From a virus, in IMG/VR virus record IMGVR_UViG_3300020601_000959, positions 1 through 64,000 of that record: DNA of 64,000 nucleotides. One strand, written 5' to 3'. Made by a program: the position numbers and the translations under genes. The notes below the pieces were generated by a model, which saw only the letters and a list, made by a program, of their open reading frames with translations, did no database searches and was not told the origin of the DNA. Of this stretch, positions 13,729 to 38,162 are shown piece after piece. Position 1 is the first letter of the stretch. The number at the start of each line of letters is the position of its first letter.

Positions 13729-15021
13729 ATGTTAGAAAAACTATTTGGGTTGTCAGCAGCAGGAACTACTGTAAGAACAGAAGTAATGGCTGGTTTAGCA
13801 ACCTTTCTTACAATGGCATATATTACTGTAGTCAACCCAGCTATTCTTTCAACTGAAGGATCAGGTATGGGTTTTGGTGCTGTGTTTACAGCAACCATTA
13901 TTGCCGCAGTAATTGGCACATTGATAATGGGTCTCTGGGCTAATTGGCCAGTAGCACTCGCACCAGGTATGGGACTTAATGCGTTCTTTACTTTTGGTGT
14001 TATCTTTGGTATGGGATATACCTATCAACAGGCACTTGCCGCTGTATTTGTAGCTGGTATTGTGTTTATTGGACTTAGTGTAACACCAGCACGTAAGTAT
14101 ATTATTAACAGCATTCCTAAGTCTATGAAACTTGGTGTTGGCGCAGGTATTGGCCTGTTTCTTGCCATTATTGGTTTGAAAAATGCTGGCATTGTAGTTG
14201 ACGATCCTGCTACACTAGTAGGACTTGGAGACGTAACTAGTTGGCCAGTATTGCTAACAGGTTTAGGCTTTGTAATTATGGCAATCCTAGACAAGCGTAA
14301 AGTTCCAGGCGCAGTGATTCTTGGTATTCTAGCTGTATCAGCTATTGCTTGGATCACAGGTATTGCGGACCTAGGCGGAGTAGCTGGTGCTATTCCAAGT
14401 CCTGAACATGCCTTTAGTATGGACTTTAGTGCTCTATTTACAGCAGGATTTATTGGAGTTGCTTTTGCCTTTTTGTTTGTTGACTTTTTTGACACAGCAG
14501 GAACACTTACAAGTGTTGCTAACCTAACAGGAAAAGTTAATGACGATGGCGAAGTAGAGCAAATTGATCGTGCTTTACTTGCTGATTCAGTAGCAACTAC
14601 AGCAGGTGCGTTAGTAGGAACATCAAACACTACTTCATACATTGAAAGTGGAGCAGGTATCAAAGAAGGTGGTAAGACAGGACTTACAGCAGTAGTTGTC
14701 GCTATCTTGTTCGGTGCTTGTTTATTCTTAGCGCCACTAGCACAAAGCATTCCAGCTTATGCTACAGCGCCAGCACTAATCTTTATTGCTACATACTTTT
14801 TACGCAACATCGCAGATATTGACTGGGATGATGTAACTGAGTATGCTCCAGCAGTATTGGCAGCAGTGTTGATGCCACTAACATTTAGTATCGCACACGG
14901 CATTGCTATTGGCTTTGTAGCTTATGCGCTAATCAAAGCATTAAGCGGTCGTACAGACGATCTAAATGGCGGTAGCATTGCTATCGCAGCTATCAGCGTT
15001 ATCTATTTTATCGCTGTATAA
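13729..15021 (+). CDS. NCS2-family purine permease (AzgA/GhxP-like)
   Basis: A 430-residue polytopic membrane protein, full length for the NCS2 hypoxanthine/guanine/adenine group. It begins FGLSAAGTTVRTEVMAGLATF, has ALAPGMGLNAFF (the transmembrane-3 signature) and continues with DFFDTAGTL and GTSNTTSYIESGAGIKEGGKTG (the transmembrane-10 and binding-site region with conserved Glu), all typical of AzgA-like proteins. About 12-14 membrane segments are visible. It would import a purine base by proton symport. It lies 22 bases after the tmRNA with AAGGGAG as Shine-Dalgarno and ends in an intrinsic terminator, so it may be read through from the tmRNA promoter. A complete transporter is unusual cargo for a phage. 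Confidence 0.92.
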   Translation: MLEKLFGLSAAGTTVRTEVMAGLATFLTMAYITVVNPAILSTEGSGMGFGAVFTATIIAAVIGTLIMGLWANWPVALAPGMGLNAFFTFGVIFGMGYTYQQALAAVFVAGIVFIGLSVTPARKYIINSIPKSMKLGVGAGIGLFLAIIGLKNAGIVVDDPATLVGLGDVTSWPVLLTGLGFVIMAILDKRKVPGAVILGILAVSAIAWITGIADLGGVAGAIPSPEHAFSMDFSALFTAGFIGVAFAFLFVDFFDTAGTLTSVANLTGKVNDDGEVEQIDRALLADSVATTAGALVGTSNTTSYIESGAGIKEGGKTGLTAVVVAILFGACLFLAPLAQSIPAYATAPALIFIATYFLRNIADIDWDDVTEYAPAVLAAVLMPLTFSIAHGIAIGFVAYALIKALSGRTDDLNGGSIAIAAISVIYFIAV

Positions 15022-15029
15022 TGATAATG

Positions 15030-15064
15030 GCCGGCTTTGATAAATCAGAGTCGGCTGTTCTTTT
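15030..15064 (+). terminator. Rho-independent terminator after the permease gene
   Basis: An 11-12 bp stem (GCCGGCTTTGAT / ATCAGAGTCGGC, two G-T pairs) followed by TGTTCTTTT. Confidence 0.8.
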
Positions 15065-15081
15065 GACTAAAGGAAAATATT

Positions 15082-15486
15082 ATGCCTTATATGACATCAG
15101 CAAATTTATTTGAAGTCGGAGACTTTATTAGCCATGCCGGAAACAAACTTGCGTGGAAGATTGAATGTGATGCTATACGACCTGAATGGTGGGACGGACT
15201 AGCACGTATGATAATGGACTACCAGACGGAGCCATTCAGCAAGGTAGTTGGAATACCAAGAGGTGGACTACCATTACAAAGTGCCATGGAAAAATATGTA
15301 ACGCCAGGCGATCATCCTTGGATGGTAGTAGACGATGTTTACACAACAGGCACAAGTTTTAGAGAATTCTGTACTACAAAAGATACAATGTTTGCCTATA
15401 AGTGGACTATCTTTGCTCGTAAACCAATTGAGTATAACGAGCCAACTGATATCAGAGCATTATTTACGATGCCTGCTACAATTTAA
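15082..15486 (+). CDS. Type I phosphoribosyltransferase
   Basis: A 134-residue protein with the PRPP-binding signature VVDDVYTTGTSF (about residues 83-94) and the pyrophosphate loop VVGIPRGGLPL (about 55-65). It is short for an enzyme of the family but has the core. It would join a base to PRPP or act as a related regulator. Directly downstream of the purine permease, it suggests salvage of imported bases, though the base specificity cannot be read here. Shine-Dalgarno AAAGGA. Confidence 0.8.
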   Translation: MPYMTSANLFEVGDFISHAGNKLAWKIECDAIRPEWWDGLARMIMDYQTEPFSKVVGIPRGGLPLQSAMEKYVTPGDHPWMVVDDVYTTGTSFREFCTTKDTMFAYKWTIFARKPIEYNEPTDIRALFTMPATI

Positions 15487-15501
15487 CACACTTCGGCGGG
15501 C

Positions 15502-15530
15502 TTGACTTTTGTGGTTTATCCTGCTATATA
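15502..15530 (+). promoter_or_regulatory. Sigma70-like promoter
   Basis: TTGACT, 17-base spacer, TATATA; Shine-Dalgarno AGGAGA before ATG 15558. Confidence 0.65.
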
Positions 15531-15557
15531 TTAATACATACACACAGGAGAATTATT

Positions 15558-15917
15558 ATGAAAAAAGTTAAACCCATTGGTTGGGCAACTACAATATCAG
15601 AGCTTGTAAAGATTCCACGTGAAATGTGGGACAGTGTAATGACAGTAGAAAAGTCACCACTACGTCACTTAGATCCTATGGTAGGACACATGATCTTCCA
15701 GTGTTTATTTTTTATCTGGAGTGGCATCTTTGCCCTAATGGTAGGAAGTTATATGGCGTTTGGAATTAGCGCAGCCTTTCATTTACTTTTAATTAGTGGT
15801 ATTACAATTACGGCTGTAACATTCCGCCAAGCAGAACGCAACCCTGATTCATTAAATGAATTGGTAAAGTCAGGTCGTAAATATGATGGACGTGCAAATG
15901 GTGGTGAGCATGAGTGA
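15558..15917 (+). CDS. Two-span membrane protein, function unknown
   Basis: A 119-residue protein with a soluble head of about 50 residues, two hydrophobic spans (about 53-75 and 80-98) joined by a short loop, and a polar tail. Its own sigma70-like promoter starts a run of small genes that includes an oxidase-subunit-like protein and pseudoazurin, so a part in respiratory or membrane function is plausible by context only. The end overlaps the next start (ATGAGTGA). Confidence 0.7.
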   Translation: MKKVKPIGWATTISELVKIPREMWDSVMTVEKSPLRHLDPMVGHMIFQCLFFIWSGIFALMVGSYMAFGISAAFHLLLISGITITAVTFRQAERNPDSLNELVKSGRKYDGRANGGEHE

Positions 15918-16068
15918 GCAAACCAATTATTGTACGACAAAGGGATTGCTACCAGCATTTCTTATTATCATGTTTTTTATCGTAGGAATACCTTTCCTTC
16001 TTGTTGACAATGCCAAATATTGTAAACAAAGTATTATTCCTTGTTATCCTTGGGTAACACCTGAGTAG
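15910..16068 (+). CDS. Single-span membrane microprotein
   Basis: A 52-residue protein with one hydrophobic segment (about residues 12-33, LLPAFLIIMFFIVGIPFLLV) and three Cys, two in the tail (KYCKQS, IPCYP). ATG 15910 is chosen because it overlaps the upstream TGA. Function unknown. Confidence 0.55.
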   Translation: MSEQTNYCTTKGLLPAFLIIMFFIVGIPFLLVDNAKYCKQSIIPCYPWVTPE

Positions 16069-16070
16069 AG

Positions 16071-16247
16071 ATGTGGGTAGGAAGAGATAAAGAAGGCAAA
16101 CTTATTTGTATGTCTCCACGTAGATCGGAGGCATACGAACTTGCTGAATCTAAAGCTGGCAAGGATAATTTTGTTGTAGAAGAAGCGTTAGATCAAGCAG
16201 AGCTGTTTGAAATCTATCGTTCATATTATGGAACACGGTCAGTATGA
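16071..16247 (+). CDS. Hypothetical 58-residue phage protein
   Basis: A short ORF from ATG 16071 to TGA 16247. Soluble and charged, starting WVGRDKEGKLICMSPRR, then an Ala/Glu helix. Its stop overlaps the next ATG (ATGA), which supports a real gene in this tightly packed operon. No family recognised. Confidence 0.6.
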   Translation: MWVGRDKEGKLICMSPRRSEAYELAESKAGKDNFVVEEALDQAELFEIYRSYYGTRSV

Positions 16248-16465
16248 CAGATGAAGTTAGAGCTGCCGCACAGGCAGAAGCAGAACGCACATTTGAACAG
16301 TTCATGATGTGGACAAAAAGAGTAACACTATGGAGTATATTCTTTTTGTTAGTTGTCGTTGTTGGTTGTAACAGCGGCGTAGAAACTGGACCTAACGCAA
16401 CTGGTTCAGGTTATAATGGGGAACAATATTCTCCATCAAATCTCAATGTAAAGGATAAAAAATGA
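16244..16465 (+). CDS. aa3-type cytochrome c oxidase subunit IV-like membrane protein
   Basis: A 73-residue protein. The segment RTFEQFMMWTKRVTLW followed by a Val/Leu/Phe span (about residues 15-42) has the form of the small bacterial aa3 oxidase subunit IV: a TF-x-x-F motif on the cytoplasmic side, then one membrane helix. The 30-residue polar extension after the helix is not typical. The gene overlaps both neighbours and lies directly before pseudoazurin, which strengthens a respiratory reading. It could instead be an unrelated one-span protein or a lipoprotein (VVGCNSG). Confidence 0.55.
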   Translation: MTDEVRAAAQAEAERTFEQFMMWTKRVTLWSIFFLLVVVVGCNSGVETGPNATGSGYNGEQYSPSNLNVKDKK

Positions 16466-16893
16466 AGTATAGAATCGCAGCAATAGGCGCATTATTTGCG
16501 TTATCGTTTGCTTTACCAACAGGTGTGTTGGCAGCAGATATGACTATTGACATGTTAAACAAACGTGATGACGGTGCTAAGATGGCGTACAGCGAAGACA
16601 TCGCACGTATTGATGTAGGCGACACCGTCACATGGGTACCAACATCAAAAGGTCACAATGTTGAGTTTATCGCAGGACCAGATGGTTGGGAAGCACCAAA
16701 GAAATCCAAACTAGGCAAAGAATATGCCTACACATTTGATACACCAGGTGTGTATTTGTATCAGTGTACACCACACAAGTCAATGGGTATGATTGCCGTT
16801 GTGGTTGTGGGTGATGGTGATAACGATATCTCGGGAACTAAAGTACGTGGCAAATCTAAGAAAAAACTTGCTGAGATCTTGGAACAACTATGA
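16462..16893 (+). CDS. Pseudoazurin (periplasmic blue copper protein)
   Basis: A 143-residue precursor with a signal peptide (residues 1-24, cleavage after VLA-A). The mature part starts DMTIDMLNK and has the cupredoxin copper ligands in the right spacing: His65 (KGHNVEF), Cys102, His105 and Met110 (CTPHKSMGM). The PGVYLYQC strand precedes the Cys as in pseudoazurins. The C-terminal helices (about 120-143) match family length. It carries electrons in the periplasm between the cytochrome bc1 complex and terminal reductases or oxidases. It overlaps the upstream oxidase-subunit-like gene by four bases. Cyanophages carry plastocyanin; this would be the counterpart for a respiring host. Confidence 0.92.
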   Translation: MKYRIAAIGALFALSFALPTGVLAADMTIDMLNKRDDGAKMAYSEDIARIDVGDTVTWVPTSKGHNVEFIAGPDGWEAPKKSKLGKEYAYTFDTPGVYLYQCTPHKSMGMIAVVVVGDGDNDISGTKVRGKSKKKLAEILEQL

Positions 16894-16913
16894 CATCGAC
16901 GAGGTAATAGAAC

Positions 16914-17138
16914 TTGAAGTTTTTGATTATAGTAACTATGGCAGTAGCAGATCCGTTTATAGTTCCAATACTAGAGTTTAACTCTAAAGACGAATGCGTT
17001 AAATATGTTATGAATCCTAACAACAGCGACAGACTGGCTGTTGAAGTAATCGCAAAAGCAGGATTTAATGATGAGATAACCGCAGTATTATGTTTGCCAG
17101 AAAACCAAAAAGTTGTGGAGATACCAGATGAAGCCTAA
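16914..17138 (+). CDS. Small secreted or membrane-anchored protein
   Basis: A 74-residue product from TTG 16914, with GAGG ten bases upstream. The hydrophobic start (MKFLIIVTMAVADPFIV) may be a short signal or anchor. The rest is soluble with two Cys (DECVKY, VLCLPE), possibly a disulfide in the periplasm. It overlaps the next gene by 11 bases. Function unknown. Confidence 0.6.
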   Translation: MKFLIIVTMAVADPFIVPILEFNSKDECVKYVMNPNNSDRLAVEVIAKAGFNDEITAVLCLPENQKVVEIPDEA

Positions 17139-17346
17139 CAAAAAGTTTGATCTCAGTGTGCGAGATATTGAAATTATTGAGCAAGCACTAAGAGCCAAAG
17201 CAGGGCGCAGAGGAATGGCAATTGCGCAAGGTGAAACATCGCCTCAACTTAGAGAAGAAATGCTCGAGATACAAAAATTACTCGGCAGATTACACGACCA
17301 AAAAGTTTGGTACAAACCAAAAAATAAATTTGTACCAGGTGGATAG
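17128..17346 (+). CDS. Small helical phage protein
   Basis: A 72-residue basic protein. ATG 17128 is chosen because GGAGA lies upstream. It is mostly helical (SVRDIEIIEQALRAKAGRR, then REEMLEIQKLLGRLHD). Similar helix-hairpin proteins occur in T4-like marine phages, in my recollection. Function unknown. The transcript probably ends at the terminator hairpin near 17421. Confidence 0.65.
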   Translation: MKPNKKFDLSVRDIEIIEQALRAKAGRRGMAIAQGETSPQLREEMLEIQKLLGRLHDQKVWYKPKNKFVPGG

Positions 17347-17413
17347 TGTTGCTCATTGAACACACTCACCACAAAAGTGTATTAGGATTGCTGCGGCGCA
17401 GTAACAAGATACA

Positions 17414-17458
17414 TAAATAGAGTGTGGGCCGGAATAGTACTCCGAACCCACTTTTTTT
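17414..17458 (+). terminator. Late box running straight into an intrinsic terminator
   Basis: TAAATA at 17414-17419 is followed within five bases by a hairpin (GTGGG with CCCAC at 17424-17451, inner CGGA/TCCG) and seven T. It can end the upstream operon. If the late box is used, the transcript would begin at the hairpin base and meet the T-run after about 35 bases. Confidence 0.7.
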
Positions 17459-17487
17459 ACACATAAAATTTGAAAAGGAAAAATATT

Positions 17488-18273
17488 ATGCGCAAGGTAT
17501 TTACCACACTAGCAGTGTTTTTAACTGCGGGAACAGCATTTGCTGAAACACCAGCACCAGCACCATCAATTTTGACAGGCGAAGTTGAAATGAAATTCGC
17601 ACAAGACGCAAATGATGACTGGGGTGGAACAATGGGTCTAGAACTAGATATCAATGCTACTGGTTTAGCAAACGTTGATTTAGACTTCAGTGCTACAGAT
17701 GGCAATGCTGTAACATTAGACAGTTGGACAGTTGGTACAACAGTCAATAGTATTGGAATTGCTATGGGTGACGATAATGGCTTAATGCCAGACGCCGAAG
17801 GTAACCAAACATTAACAGCGCCAACAATGACTGAGTCAGTAGCAATTACAGCAGGCGCGGCATCAGTAGCTGTTGGTTTTACAGACTGGAACACAGACAT
17901 TACAGACATTAGTAATGTACAAGGTGCTTATACTTTTGGTGTAGGTAGCTTGAGTGTCACAGCAGCTGGCGACTATAACATGGATTCAGAAAACACAGTG
18001 CTAGGCGCAGGTGTATCTGGACTAGATTTAGGAATGGCTTCAATTGGTGGTGCTATGTCATATGACTTAGACGCCGAAGCAATTGGTTATGAAGGTACCG
18101 CAACAACAGGTGGCCTAACAGCATACTTGAATGGTGATGACACAGACACACTACAAAACGTAGGTGGCGAGTATACATACATGTTAAGTGGAGCAGAGCT
18201 TGAAGCAGGCGTAAACTACAACTTGGACTCAGAAGAGTTCACACCAACTGTAACAGTAGGATTTTCTTTCTAA
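17488..18273 (+). CDS. Secreted outer-membrane beta-barrel (porin-like) protein
   Basis: A 261-residue protein with a signal peptide (MRKVFTTLAVFLTAGTAFA, cleavage before ETPAP). The mature part is made of short alternating strands with Asp/Asn/Gly turns and ends in ...TVTVGFSF, the terminal-Phe signal recognised by the Bam machinery. It looks like a small porin. ATG 17488 is chosen over TTG 17470 because of AAAAGG and the better signal sequence. A terminator follows. Possible roles are surface masking, superinfection exclusion or nutrient uptake; none is shown. Confidence 0.75.
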   Translation: MRKVFTTLAVFLTAGTAFAETPAPAPSILTGEVEMKFAQDANDDWGGTMGLELDINATGLANVDLDFSATDGNAVTLDSWTVGTTVNSIGIAMGDDNGLMPDAEGNQTLTAPTMTESVAITAGAASVAVGFTDWNTDITDISNVQGAYTFGVGSLSVTAAGDYNMDSENTVLGAGVSGLDLGMASIGGAMSYDLDAEAIGYEGTATTGGLTAYLNGDDTDTLQNVGGEYTYMLSGAELEAGVNYNLDSEEFTPTVTVGFSF

Positions 18274-22948: not shown

Positions 22949-23588
22949 ACATCTTTATGCTCTTGGGTGTAGTTGGACTGAAGGCACAGATGATAATGAT
23001 AACAAGGCAGGTTGGGTAGGAAGGCTTGCTGAACAACTTGGTTGTGTAGGATTCACTAACTTTGGTGGCAGTGGCGACAGTAACTGGCAACAGTATCAAA
23101 ACTTTATAAAACATATCGAAGCAAATGATGCTATAGCTATTTTTGGTTTGACTGCCTTCAGTAGAACAGTTGGATCTAATGGTAATACTATCTATGGTGG
23201 AGACTTTGATAAACAATATCTATTAAAGTATTATAACAGTGACTTAATCAAATTCCAAACTCACACATTAATACACAGCTTTCAACAGCTTTGCCAAATG
23301 AATAATATAGATAACTTGACTTTTATTAGTTTTGATGATTTAGATTTGTTAGATAAAGATTATAACTACTTGGACTATAGAAAAATAATTACCGATACAA
23401 CTATGCGAGATTATATTAACGGCAGCAAAAATATAGGCGGTGATGTAAACGATACTAGTAAGCACATAGGCAAACCAAGTACAAAGCATAGAGTAAATGT
23501 AGAATACTTTAGTAAAGATGGTCATCCAAATGCTAAAGGTTACACAAAATGGGCTGACTATCTATTTAGGAGAATAACATGCGGTTAG
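22941..23588 (+). CDS. SGNH/GDSL-like hydrolase
   Basis: A 215-residue protein with the blocks of the SGNH fold: ALGCSWTEG near residue 10 (block I Ser), NFGGSGDSN near 40 (Gly/Asn), [12 protein letters not shown], and [14 protein letters not shown] near 195 (block V Asp-x-x-His, here D-G-H). Such enzymes hydrolyse esters, for example acetyl groups on surface sugars or lipids. There is no signal peptide, so it may act on virion or cytoplasmic substrates. It overlaps its neighbours on both sides. Confidence 0.75.
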
Positions 23589-24667
23589 AAGAAGACATAA
23601 AATTAGACTACAAGGATGTACTAATACGTCCAAAGCGTAGTACATTGAAAAGCCGTAGTCAAGTTAGACTTGAACGAAAGTTTAATTTCCGTAACAGCAA
23701 AGCGTATTACGAAGGTGTGCCTATTATGGCTGCTAATATGGATGGCGTAGGTACATTTGAAATGGCAGACAAACTTGCCGAAGGCGGATTGTTTACCTGT
23801 CTAGTTAAAACATATAGTGTAGAAGATATTGCTAGTTATTTTAATGCTGACATTCCAGAGAGATTAGACAATGTTGCTATGAGTATTGGTTCAAGTGATA
23901 CTGACTTTCACAAGCTAGTAGATGTACAAGCAAAAATAGAGCATAAACTTAAATATGTTTGTATGGATATTGCGAATGGTTACAGTGATCATTTTGCGGC
24001 AAGAGTCCGTAAGGTACGTGATCAATTTCCAGGTTTAACTATTATTGCTGGCAATGTTGTGACAAGAGAAATGACAGAGGAGTTGATTCTAAGTGGAGCA
24101 GATATTGTTAAAGTGGGCATTGGTCCCGGGTCTGTGTGCACTACTCGCATACAAACTGGTGTTGGATATCCGCAGTTATCGGCAGTTATCGAATGTGCAG
24201 ATGCCGCCCATGGACTTGGGGGTCACATTATTGCTGACGGTGGGTGTACTTGCCCTGGAGATGTCGCTAAAGCCTTTGCTGCCGGCGCAGATTTTGTTAT
24301 GCTTGGCGGCATGCTTGCTGGGCATGATGAAGGCGGCGGCGAAGTAATTACTAGAAAGTTTATTACAGATGAATTTCAGGATGATGGAAGGACTCGAAAG
24401 TTTAATGAAAAACATTTTGTACAGTTCTACGGTATGAGTAGTGACGCAGCAAACACCAAACACTTTGGCGGATTAAAAGATTATCGTAGTAGCGAAGGAC
24501 GCGAAGTCTTAGTGCCATATAGAGGAAGTGTTGCTCATACAATACAAGATTTATTAGGCGGCATTCGGTCTGCTTGTACATACACAGGAGCAATGAAACT
24601 TAAACAATTAAGTAAGTGCGCTACGTTTGTGAGATGTACACAACAATTTAATAGTGTGTACGCATGA
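23579..24667 (+). CDS. guaC: GMP reductase
   Basis: A 362-residue TIM-barrel enzyme very close in pattern to E. coli Gua[20 protein letters not shown] at the start, [28 protein letters not shown] (the catalytic Cys), [38 protein letters not shown] and [13 protein letters not shown]. It makes IMP from GMP with NADPH, feeding guanine nucleotides back to the adenine branch. The extra residues against E. coli lie mainly between about 255 and 275. It overlaps the SGNH gene at its start and the methyltransferase gene at its end. It fits with the purine permease and phosphoribosyltransferase at 13.7-15.5 kb. Confidence 0.95.
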
Positions 24668-26058: not shown

Positions 26059-26594
26059 GTAGTAAACTTAAAGAACTTACATGGGAAAACCATAGCAAAG
26101 CTGAACGAACAGAACACGCTCGTAAATTATTAAAAGGTATGACTCCTGAAGAGTACCACCGTTATATTTACAACCAATATGTTATGTATGCCGTGCTAGA
26201 AAATCAAGCAGTTGTATACGGAGCAATGGACGAAATTGAATACATTGCTAGAGCAGATGCTATTAAGAAAGACTTAGAAGAACTTGAACAAGAATACAAC
26301 ATCGAACGCAAAGGCGAATTGCTATGTCCTGTTGTTTCAGACTATGTAAATTATATTTTAAGTTTAACTGAATACGATGATTTTATGGCACATATCTACG
26401 TACGACACTTTGGTGATATGTATGGCGGACAAATGATTGCTAAACGTAATCCTGGCTCTGGCAAGATGTATGAGTTTCACGATGTTGATGAACTCAAAAC
26501 AAAAGTTAGAGCAAGACTTCATGATGGTATGGCAGACGAAGCAAATTTGTGTTTTGAATATGCTATGAAACTATTTGAGGAGTTAGAACAGTGA
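26055..26594 (+). CDS. hemO: Heme oxygenase
   Basis: A 179-residue enzyme of the HO-1 family. The proximal heme ligand is His13 (TWENHSKAE). The distal-helix motif appears as YVRHFGDMYGGQMIAK. It opens heme to biliverdin, iron and CO using ferredoxin or another reductant. Its stop overlaps the GTG of the bilin reductase gene, so biliverdin would be passed to that enzyme. The pair matches the hemO-pcyX arrangement described from uncultured marine phages. Confidence 0.93.
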   Translation: MSSKLKELTWENHSKAERTEHARKLLKGMTPEEYHRYIYNQYVMYAVLENQAVVYGAMDEIEYIARADAIKKDLEELEQEYNIERKGELLCPVVSDYVNYILSLTEYDDFMAHIYVRHFGDMYGGQMIAKRNPGSGKMYEFHDVDELKTKVRARLHDGMADEANLCFEYAMKLFEELEQ

Positions 26595-27283
26595 GTATGA
26601 TTTGGGAAAAACTAATTGAATGCCAAGATAAAATTATTGAAACATTTGATTATCATGCGGATGAAATTGAAGAACCAGGTTTAGCTGACTTTAATCAGCC
26701 AGACAATGGTTGGATCAACAGAGTGTGGAGCAACGAGTATATTCGTAGAGCACACATTGATGTTGTAGATGCCCGTGAGTCAAAAGGCTTATGGATGATG
26801 CACGTGTGTATCTTTCCACAATTACATAACGATGCTCCAATTTACGGTTTTGATGTTATTGCTGGCAAGAATAAAATGACAGGTGCCTTTCACGACTTTA
26901 GTCGCAGTGCTGATCCTGAACATCCAATGATACAAGGATACTATGACAGTGTAGATCATTTTGTGCCAAAGAAACAACGTGAATTACCAGAATGGGCAAC
27001 TAACATTTTCACAGGAAAGATGTTGGCTGCTGGTAATGTAAATGACGAAGCAGAATGTACAGAAATTATCCGTATTGCTTTAGAAAATCTAAAAACATAT
27101 ATGTGGGAAGTCAAGGACTTTAACCATACGGCAGACGAAGCTGCTGTGGCAAAGGCACAAGATTATTATTGTCATAATCAGCAACAAAATCCTCATACAC
27201 CTGCGGTTATGAAATCACTGGGACTACCAGAAGAAGATGTAGAAATTTTCTGTAGAGATATGTTGTTTCCAAAATTGGCATAA
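26591..27283 (+). CDS. pcyX: Ferredoxin-dependent bilin reductase (PcyA/PcyX-like)
   Basis: A 230-residue bilin reductase. The core MMHVCIFPQLHNDAPIYGFD holds the His and Asp that correspond by pattern to the proton-donor pair of PcyA (His88, Asp105), followed by AGKNKMTGAFHDFS. The published phage PcyX is PcyA-related but makes phycoerythrobilin from biliverdin; I assign PcyX from the hemO neighbour, the phage context and the absence of cyanobacterial features. PcyA activity cannot be excluded without a tree. GTG 26591 overlaps the hemO stop (GTGA); ATG 26597 is an alternative. Confidence 0.85.
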   Translation: MSMIWEKLIECQDKIIETFDYHADEIEEPGLADFNQPDNGWINRVWSNEYIRRAHIDVVDARESKGLWMMHVCIFPQLHNDAPIYGFDVIAGKNKMTGAFHDFSRSADPEHPMIQGYYDSVDHFVPKKQRELPEWATNIFTGKMLAAGNVNDEAECTEIIRIALENLKTYMWEVKDFNHTADEAAVAKAQDYYCHNQQQNPHTPAVMKSLGLPEEDVEIFCRDMLFPKLA

Positions 27284-35748: not shown

Positions 35749-36120
35749 ATGTTGAAGTGGATACTTGAAAGACTGCTTAAAGATTATGTAGATGAGTTAG
35801 TAGATAAACGTTTCAAAGAGAAAATGTATGAAAGGTATTATGAAACCAAACAACAAGAACTCAGAGAAAGAATCCAACGACTACGTCGAAGTATTTCATC
35901 ACCAACACAAAGGGTTCAAACTGAGACAAAAAGAGAGGAAAAGCCCAGTAGTGTATTGGAGGTACCCAGATCTGAAGAACCCAGAGTACGGAAGAAGAAT
36001 AATAAGAAGGTAGACAACAGAGACTGGTTTGAAGATACTATGAAAGAAGTAGAAAAAGCAAGAGCAAAACGTGAAGAAATGGATAAACTAAAAGCCAAAC
36101 TCACAGGGAAAACAAGATGA
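35749..36120 (+). CDS. Charged coiled-coil protein
   Basis: A 123-residue protein, almost wholly Lys/Arg/Glu/Gln-rich helix with no Cys. It is likely a coiled coil (residues about 10-50 and 85-120) with a disordered Pro/Ser linker. The stop overlaps the ATG of the cyclase gene, so it may be its partner. Function unknown. Confidence 0.65.
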   Translation: MLKWILERLLKDYVDELVDKRFKEKMYERYYETKQQELRERIQRLRRSISSPTQRVQTETKREEKPSSVLEVPRSEEPRVRKKNNKKVDNRDWFEDTMKEVEKARAKREEMDKLKAKLTGKTR

Positions 36121-38162
36121 GAAAAATTATATTTTCACCATTATGGAGCCTATTAGTATTAGCAGTACTAAGTTATCTATTCTATTTAAACCCGCCGTTT
36201 TTAGAAAGTGTTAAATTACGGTACTTTGACTCGCTGATTGTGAATCAACAGCCAGTTGAAAACAACATCTATACAGTGAATATTGATGAGCCAAGTTTAG
36301 AGGCATACGGACAATGGCCGTGGCCGAGAGGTGATTATGGTAGCCTTATAGAGGAGATATATGCCAGAGGCGCTGGACTAGTAGTGTTCAATGTATTGAT
36401 GTCTGAAACAGATCGTCAGGGCGAGGACGTTATGCTTGCCCTGACTATGAGCAATTATCCAGTTATTGTCACAATGCTGGGCTCCGAAGAAAATAAAAAT
36501 GAACCAATCAATCCTGGTGCTACTATAGTAAACAGTGATTACATTTATACTATCCCAAGCGTTCCAGGAATCATAGCAAATGTTCCTGATATCGAAAATA
36601 ACGCCATTGGGTCAGGCATTACAAACTCTTGGCCTGAAATAGATGGTGTAACAAGACGCATACCATTAGTAGTAGAATCTGGCGGTACATTGTATCCAAA
36701 TGTTACAATGGAGGTATTGCGTGTACTAGCAGGTGATCCAAGTTTCCAAATCAAACTATCACCGATGGGTGTAGACAAACTACGCATACCACAATTTGGT
36801 GTTATACAGACTAGCCCAACAGGTGAAGTATGGATTGACTGGAGTCAACAATCAAAGTCATATAGCGCAGTAGACTTACCAGATGACTTTGCTGGCGGCA
36901 TAGTATTTGTAGGACCAACAGCAGCAGGGCTTACACAGCCATTAGCAACAGCAGCAGGTTCAGTGTTCCCACACGAAGTCCAAGCAGCAATGCTAGGAAC
37001 AGTTTTTAATGAATCAAACATAAGCAGACATCCTGACGCAGAAGCATGGGCTGAACTAGCAGCGTTAATAACGGCAGGCGTATTTTTAATTGCACTCGCC
37101 CGATGGACATATGTTGGTATAGCCTTCTTTGTATTGTCAGTAGGCGGTTTTATTGGAGTTAGTATATATGTATTCAATACACAAAATATTCTTATTGATG
37201 GCGCTACTATCAGTGCTTTCCTCTTGCTCGTGGGTCTCAAACGATATGTGCTCAAGTTCCTCGACGAGTTCCTGCAAAAGCAAGCCATTAAAAAACAATT
37301 CGAAGGATACGCCAGCCCAGCAGTGGTTAAACTATTACAAGAATCTCCAGAGCTTGTTAAACGTGGTATAAAGAAAGATGTGAGTATCGTGTTCAGTGAC
37401 TTGCGTGGATTTACACCATTAGGTGAATCATTTGGAGACGATGTACAAGGGCTAACAAGAATAATGAATGGCTACATGGATGCCATTACAGAGCCAGTGC
37501 TTGACGCAGATGGCATGATTATAAAGTATATTGGTGACGCTAGTATGCACATACACAACGCACCAATTGACGACAACAGACACGCACACACCGCAGTAGA
37601 AACAGGACTTAAAATGTTGAAAGCAGTGGAGAAGTTTAATGAAGAAGTTATTATACCCGAAGGTAGGCCACCTGTCGGTATGGGTGCCGGCATTAATACT
37701 GGGCTTGGTTATCTGGGCGAAATGGGCAGCAGCAAACGACACAGTTATGATGTACTCGGAGACGCCGTCAGTACAGCAGCTCGTGTTGAAAGCAAATGTA
37801 AAGAATACGGATGTCTATTACTTGTTGGAGAAAATACATACGAAGCAACAAAGGAAGACTTCTTCTATCTCAAAGTAGACGATTTACAAGTAAAAGGCAA
37901 AAGTGTAGGATTAAGCATTTATACTGTATTAGATAATCCACAACATGCCTGGAAAAAAGATCAATACAGACACGAAAAAATGATGGAAGCATATAAAGCA
38001 CAAGACTTTGATGAAGCTTATAGAATAAGTGCTGCATTGACAAATTGTTTTGATTTCAAAATGACAGGCTATTATAAAATGTGGATGGAACGTTGTGAAT
38101 ATATGAAAACACAAGACTTACCATCAGATTGGAATGGTGTATTTGTAGCCACAAGTAAATAG
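36117..38162 (+). CDS. CHASE2-domain class III adenylate cyclase
   Basis: A 681-residue membrane protein. A first span (about 10-27) is followed by an extracytoplasmic CHASE2 domain (about 30-300; YTVNIDEPSLEAYGQWPWPRG is its signature), three spans (about 305-375) and a class III cyclase domain (about 410-620). Metal-binding Asp428 (FSDLRGF) and Asp474 (YIGDAS) are present, as is the purine-selective Lys470, suggesting ATP use. The transition-state Asn of the GDxVNxAAR motif is Ser552, while Arg556 is kept, so activity may be reduced. It would make cAMP in response to an envelope signal. A FecR-domain protein is encoded at 30722. Confidence 0.88.
   Translation: MRKIIFSPLWSLLVLAVLSYLFYLNPPFLESVKLRYFDSLIVNQQPVENNIYTVNIDEPSLEAYGQWPWPRGDYGSLIEEIYARGAGLVVFNVLMSETDRQGEDVMLALTMSNYPVIVTMLGSEENKNEPINPGATIVNSDYIYTIPSVPGIIANVPDIENNAIGSGITNSWPEIDGVTRRIPLVVESGGTLYPNVTMEVLRVLAGDPSFQIKLSPMGVDKLRIPQFGVIQTSPTGEVWIDWSQQSKSYSAVDLPDDFAGGIVFVGPTAAGLTQPLATAAGSVFPHEVQAAMLGTVFNESNISRHPDAEAWAELAALITAGVFLIALARWTYVGIAFFVLSVGGFIGVSIYVFNTQNILIDGATISAFLLLVGLKRYVLKFLDEFLQKQAIKKQFEGYASPAVVKLLQESPELVKRGIKKDVSIVFSDLRGFTPLGESFGDDVQGLTRIMNGYMDAITEPVLDADGMIIKYIGDASMHIHNAPIDDNRHAHTAVETGLKMLKAVEKFNEEVIIPEGRPPVGMGAGINTGLGYLGEMGSSKRHSYDVLGDAVSTAARVESKCKEYGCLLLVGENTYEATKEDFFYLKVDDLQVKGKSVGLSIYTVLDNPQHAWKKDQYRHEKMMEAYKAQDFDEAYRISAALTNCFDFKMTGYYKMWMERCEYMKTQDLPSDWNGVFVATSK
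38156..38161 (+). promoter_or_regulatory. T4-type late promoter abutting the start codon
   Basis: TAAATA four bases before ATG 38166, overlapping the cyclase stop. Predicted leaderless transcript. Confidence 0.55.

Follow-up and report, generated by a model that had tools for sequence, protein, structure and literature searches.

Do phages of respiring heterotrophs supply their hosts with electron carriers? To our knowledge, phages are well documented as manipulating electron transport only where the host is photosynthetic. The question is raised by a short gene cluster in the window, the 64,000-base stretch of DNA analyzed here (bases 1-64000 of a virus record that is 69,187 bases long). The original prediction had read positions 16071-16893 as respiratory cargo: a complete secreted pseudoazurin whose gene overlaps that of a small membrane protein resembling subunit IV of aa3 oxidase, the two forming an equivalent of the plastocyanin carried by cyanophages. 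Three forward-strand open reading frames (ORFs), at 16071-16247, 16244-16465 and 16462-16893, follow one another with successive 4-nt ATGA overlaps, an arrangement that suggests coupled translation. The anticipated overlap between the pseudoazurin gene and the small membrane protein gene is present as the second of these 4-nt ATGA junctions; position 16071, however, begins a separate 58-aa ORF, and the small protein starts at 16244.

The gene at 16462..16893 (forward strand) is a complete ORF for a 143-aa pseudoazurin precursor, a secreted type 1 copper protein with a signal peptide (MKYRIAAIGALFALSFALPTGVLA, followed by AD...) and an intact site predicted to bind copper. The ligands named in the original prediction, His65, Cys102, His105 and Met110, align to those of pseudoazurins in the PDB and are invariant in 25 representative viral relatives. 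The protein scores 63.5 bits against Pfam PF00127 (Copper-bind). Its best NCBIfam family by far is the pseudoazurin family TIGR02375, at 97.2 bits against a cut-off of 109.85, an equivalog cut-off that serves as an annotation threshold and holds no structural criterion. In a sequence search of the PDB, the best 22 matches are pseudoazurins or entries named 'blue copper protein', from 1e-25. An AlphaFold model built from the 25 viral relatives shows a cupredoxin sandwich, predicted with confidence (mean pLDDT 83, and at least 90 across most of the sandwich), and a fold search with this model returned pseudoazurin structures for all of the top 27 places (TM about 0.74/0.85). We excluded a plastocyanin identity on three grounds: identity to phage plastocyanins is ~26-40%, the NCBIfam scores are 97 bits for pseudoazurin and 38 for plastocyanin, and the first plastocyanin in the fold search stands at rank 28 with a lower TM. 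The gene is under purifying selection (median dN/dS 0.17).

A phage copper carrier is not without precedent. Cyanophage plastocyanin (PetE, phrog_515) is likewise a soluble type 1 copper carrier on marine T4-like phages, where it is thought to sustain host electron flow. It differs in belonging to another cupredoxin family and to phages of photosynthetic hosts, whereas the window's protein clusters with the pseudoazurins of heterotrophs and has an oxidase-like helix as its partner. The comparison with plastocyanin in the original prediction is therefore fair as a working analogy and does not extend to the protein itself. Bacterial pseudoazurins (Achromobacter, Alcaligenes, Paracoccus, Sinorhizobium) share with the viral protein the fold, the four ligands, the signal peptide and the C-terminal helix region. 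In contrast to them, the viral protein falls just under the TIGR02375 cut-off, has its own MLNKRDDG.KM signature and a basic GKSKKKL end, and is encoded in a phage module rather than among denitrification genes.

The statement that no phage pseudoazurin had been described held up, as we found none in phage records, PHROGs, BFVD or the open-licence papers searched. Among isolated phages, the only matches to the window's protein were plastocyanins, at ~26-40% identity, and a fold search of a viral structure library returned no pseudoazurin. Its best matches were a blue copper protein of a giant virus and weak sandwiches, and a cyanophage plastocyanin stood at rank 4. A study of nitrogen-cycle genes encoded by viruses observed no electron carriers in its phages (PMC8115048); pseudoazurin is such a carrier. 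A report of viral cbb3 oxidase reads (PMC3474794) offers an earlier hint that viruses of marine heterotrophs touch the terminal respiratory chain. Those were catalytic-subunit reads from the viral size fraction, unlike the electron carrier described here, which has genome context in many contigs. The electron-carrier kind of auxiliary gene is already known from phage plastocyanin, and we rate the pseudoazurin form as new. Its subunit-IV-like partner may be new in itself: we found no copy in phage isolates and no phage gene of this kind in the open-licence papers searched.

The pair could in principle be host DNA or an assembly chimera, as the original prediction had cautioned, and we consider the probability of this negligible. 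Four other IMG/VR contigs contain the segment at 13729-18273 at 99.9-100%, and a fifth contains its first 3 kb. The survey of virus contigs that had been proposed yielded 268 IMG/VR stretches encoding relatives of the pseudoazurin and 125 encoding relatives of the subunit-IV-like protein. A T4-type gp23 capsid gene is present in four pseudoazurin-carrying records, and in one of these, of 119 kb, this major capsid gene ends 0.7 kb from the pseudoazurin. In the window, other phage genes lie on both sides of the module (a ribonucleotide reductase pair, an exonuclease, an endolysin and an endonuclease). The recurrent segment, the 268 viral relatives and the linkage to a capsid gene together rule out contamination. 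The pseudoazurin is an auxiliary metabolic gene in the usual sense: virus-borne, kin to cellular metabolic genes and under purifying selection.

The second gene, at 16244..16465 (forward strand), encodes a single-helix membrane protein of 73 aa. As foreseen, it combines a TF-x-x-F motif (residues 16-20) with a one-helix plan, the model showing one helix at residues 2-43 followed by a loose tail. Whether it is related to oxidase subunit IV is a subtler matter. The original prediction had allowed that the protein might fail the subunit IV profile, and taken alone the window's copy does fall short, at 17.8 bits against a cut-off of 22 for PF07835 (COX4_pro_2); searched against the PDB, the profile of its family matched no subunit IV chain. 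The family as a whole fares better, with 25/30 viral relatives matching PF07835 at E <= 0.1 (best 3.4e-5). When the viral profile was run in six frames against 14 whole alphaproteobacterial genomes, in five of them the best match fell on the PF07835 subunit IV gene, at the same places in a repeat of the search. An hhalign comparison of the viral family with nine host subunit IV sequences gave 94.3% (E = 1e-7, 26 columns); two controls with another viral one-helix family both gave ~1%, ruling out mere helix similarity. The likeness is visible directly in host EKTFAGFINWTTKTV (L186) and viral EKTFEGFILWSKRTT (L032), and the conserved F20 and K25 of the viral N-terminal half coincide with conserved positions in several host subunit IV sequences (TF/TY..F....K). 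These comparisons support homology of the N-terminal half to aa3 oxidase subunit IV, with which it shares T-[FY]-x-x-F, a basic position and a helix of similar length. The small protein is descended from alphaproteobacterial aa3 subunit IV, or at least specifically resembles it.

The rest of the protein has no place in subunit IV, which ends soon after its helix and has neither lipobox nor tail. The viral protein carries a lipobox (VVGC) and a conserved, predicted periplasmic tail of ~30 residues, with the consensus GVE...YNGEQYxPSNLNVKDK. Across 74 unique sequences, position -3 of the lipobox is V in 74/74, position -1 is G, A or S in 73/74 and T in one, and the Cys and the Asn that follows it are present in 74/74. 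The lipobox stands after a basic n-region and a hydrophobic stretch, as in LspA substrates, which makes the protein a putative lipoprotein. Its Cys, the invariant C42, lies 15-17 residues from the last basic residue and, at about residue 40, comes late for a lipoprotein signal. Conservation is highest in the Cys and tail, and the gene is under purifying selection (median dN/dS 0.26). Judged by its sequence, the small protein is subunit-IV-derived in its N-terminal half and a distinct protein as a whole.

The two genes often travel together. In 19/35 dereplicated pseudoazurin loci, the subunit-IV-like gene lies <=20 bp upstream, and it is found elsewhere in the locus in 10 more (29/35); counting redundant copies, 50 loci have the same 4-nt overlap. 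Both genes are also kept, at a distance of ~37 kb, in two related records of 139 and 343 kb. Given the 268 and 125 relatives, the purifying selection and the 50 overlaps, the pairing is not due to chance. Many relatives add a third component, a DoxX-family membrane protein (Pfam 33.1 bits; example L090:5652-6062, with 40 further unique sequences from pseudoazurin loci), whose gene lies directly downstream of the pseudoazurin in 23/35 dereplicated loci. Among subunit-IV-like loci, DoxX is present in 24/30 with pseudoazurin and 1/17 without (Fisher p about 1e-6, phylogeny ignored). No DoxX was found in the window's own record.

The cluster has further neighbors, those in the window all on the forward strand. 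The 58-aa ORF (16071..16247) belongs to no known family and adjoins the module in part of the relatives. At 15883..16068 is the commonest neighbor in relatives, a small one-helix membrane protein with conserved cysteines and the core MSEQTNYCTTKGL...YCKQSIIPCYPW (YCTTKGL...PC family); the internal M of MSEQ is its probable start, and Pfam holds no family of note for it. A frequent neighbor at 15558..15917 is a 119-aa membrane protein with the conserved C-terminus NGGEHE. Family searches including Pfam gave no match for this protein or for the 58-aa ORF. A DUF1127 protein (L027:4189-4443) is another recurrent neighbor, with relatives in ~17 other loci.

The tree of pseudoazurins called for by the original prediction points to a source. 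In a 114-row tree of few columns and many unresolved forks, the viral pseudoazurins, sampled as the 80 best matches per search, a choice that favors one group, fall essentially together, nested within a set of pseudoazurins from marine Alphaproteobacteria (SAR11-like, OCS116 and Rhodospirillaceae single cells). Marine Alphaproteobacteria are our best guess for the host. Inside the viral group are a gene from Rhodobacteraceae MED-G08 and three Rhodobacterales genes of Ascidiaceihabitans type. Because the neighbors of these three are chromosome-like, pseudoazurin has probably been transferred, either from cell to virus or the reverse. Three other pseudoazurin-carrying contigs (L159, L167 and L172), binned in metagenome-assembled genomes (MAGs) of Muricauda, Rhodobacteraceae and Neomarinimicrobiota, were kept separate in the tree on account of their viral-looking neighbors; contigs of this type are a trap for surveys of 'bacterial' pseudoazurins.

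What would such a module do? The best explanation, and one we lean toward as somewhat probable, is a phage-borne respiratory auxiliary module that supplies a periplasmic electron carrier. During infection, the pseudoazurin would fill with copper in the periplasm and take electrons from cytochrome bc1 or a different periplasmic donor and pass them to the host terminal oxidase, so that respiration and ATP synthesis continue despite the shut-off of host genes. The subunit-IV-like helix would associate with the host oxidase, and the periplasmic, possibly lipid-anchored tail would hold or recruit pseudoazurin or another partner there. Delivery of electrons to the oxidase and docking of the small protein at it are steps that we infer. 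This explanation draws on the intact copper site and fold, the export signal and purifying selection; on a subunit-IV-like gene that lies upstream or in the locus, is kept even where the two are ~37 kb apart and is homologous to subunit IV; and on the tie to DoxX, the alphaproteobacterial source and the lack of NirK above the cut-off in the genomes of the cellular relatives. Counting against it are the small protein's score below the Pfam cut-off, the absence of a PDB subunit IV chain among its matches, its features foreign to subunit IV, and the 17/47 dereplicated subunit-IV-like loci that have no pseudoazurin in the stretch examined. The Paracoccus oxidase, moreover, is little affected when its subunit IV is deleted; this subunit is thus no obvious bottleneck, a further point against the explanation. 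A bolder form, which we hold to be doubtful, is that the phage rebuilds the host oxidase: the helix would replace or join subunit IV and the lipid-anchored tail would tether the phage pseudoazurin, with electrons entering through DoxX in many relatives, and the infected cell would gain an electron path to oxygen built by the phage.

The features of the small protein that sit least well with an oxidase subunit are those expected if it is instead a short phage membrane lipoprotein, acting in envelope remodelling, exclusion or lysis, whose signal region came to resemble subunit IV by chance or convergence and which only shares a cargo block with a pseudoazurin that may itself be respiratory. The perfect or nearly perfect lipobox, the strong conservation of Cys and tail and the loci without pseudoazurin all fit this account. 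The late position of the Cys does not, and neither do the match of F20 and K25 to conserved host residues or the profile matches, which were specific against negative controls and recovered the subunit IV gene from whole genomes. We regard this account as possible, if on the unlikely side.

Two other accounts give the pseudoazurin a different task. It might serve another acceptor, for example in nitrite or nitrous oxide reduction, and so support nitrogen-oxide respiration at low oxygen, since NirK and NosZ are the classical partners of pseudoazurin. A pseudoazurin gene is contained in a SAR11 nirK-cbb3 region from an upwelling system (PMC12816887), as this account would have it. However, no copper nitrite reductase (NirK) scored above the cut-off in the 14 genomes encoding the nearest cellular relatives, a set in which many are probably incomplete, while a control genome gave a match above it; the carrier there probably serves something other than NirK, which weakens a nitrogen-oxide role. 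In the corresponding NosZ search, the control gave no signal. The product of the neighboring gene is moreover related to one subunit of an enzyme that reduces oxygen, and we find the nitrogen-oxide account improbable. Alternatively, the cupredoxin could protect against copper or redox stress, buffering periplasmic copper or joining a DoxX oxidative-stress complex rather than conserving energy. DoxX proteins of mycobacteria take part in a membrane oxidoreductase and stress complex, and the tight link between DoxX and pseudoazurin agrees with such a role. Yet the fold and ligands are those of a canonical electron-transfer pseudoazurin, the window's record lacks DoxX, and the coupling in the window is to a subunit-IV-like helix; a protective function likewise seems improbable.

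If the respiratory explanation is right, phages carrying the module may help the infected cell keep breathing. With pseudoazurin and the subunit-IV-like protein, often joined by DoxX, widespread in T4-like marine phages, viruses of heterotrophs would stock the respiratory chain too, and this would tie viral infection to marine oxygen consumption and copper use.

Several other features of these genomes deserve mention. The window shares an adenylate/guanylate cyclase-like gene (36117-38162) with Melnitz and HTVC008M (49% and 34% identical), T4-like phages of marine Methylophilales and Pelagibacter, in which we found no pseudoazurin or subunit-IV-like gene; in Melnitz, the cyclase-like gene follows a curli/FecR cluster. 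At 13729-15021 is an NCS2-type purine/xanthine permease (Pfam Xan_ur_permease, 186 bits) whose PHROG, 27398, bears the label 'tail protein', apparently in error; in locus L153, a 95% identical copy directly precedes the subunit-IV-like gene, with no pseudoazurin in the stretch examined. The gene at 17470-18273 encodes a secreted, outer-membrane-barrel-like protein of no family, with relatives near the module in ~57 loci. Matches to PHROGs labelled ferredoxin oxidoreductase (26591-27283, 72.9 bits) and dehydrogenase (23579-24667, 400 bits) mark possible redox or metabolic cargo. Finally, one record of 342,607 bases (L149) has gp23, pseudoazurin and a subunit-IV-like gene whose two parts lie at opposite ends of the record; this split suggests a large phage genome that is circular or has terminal repeats.
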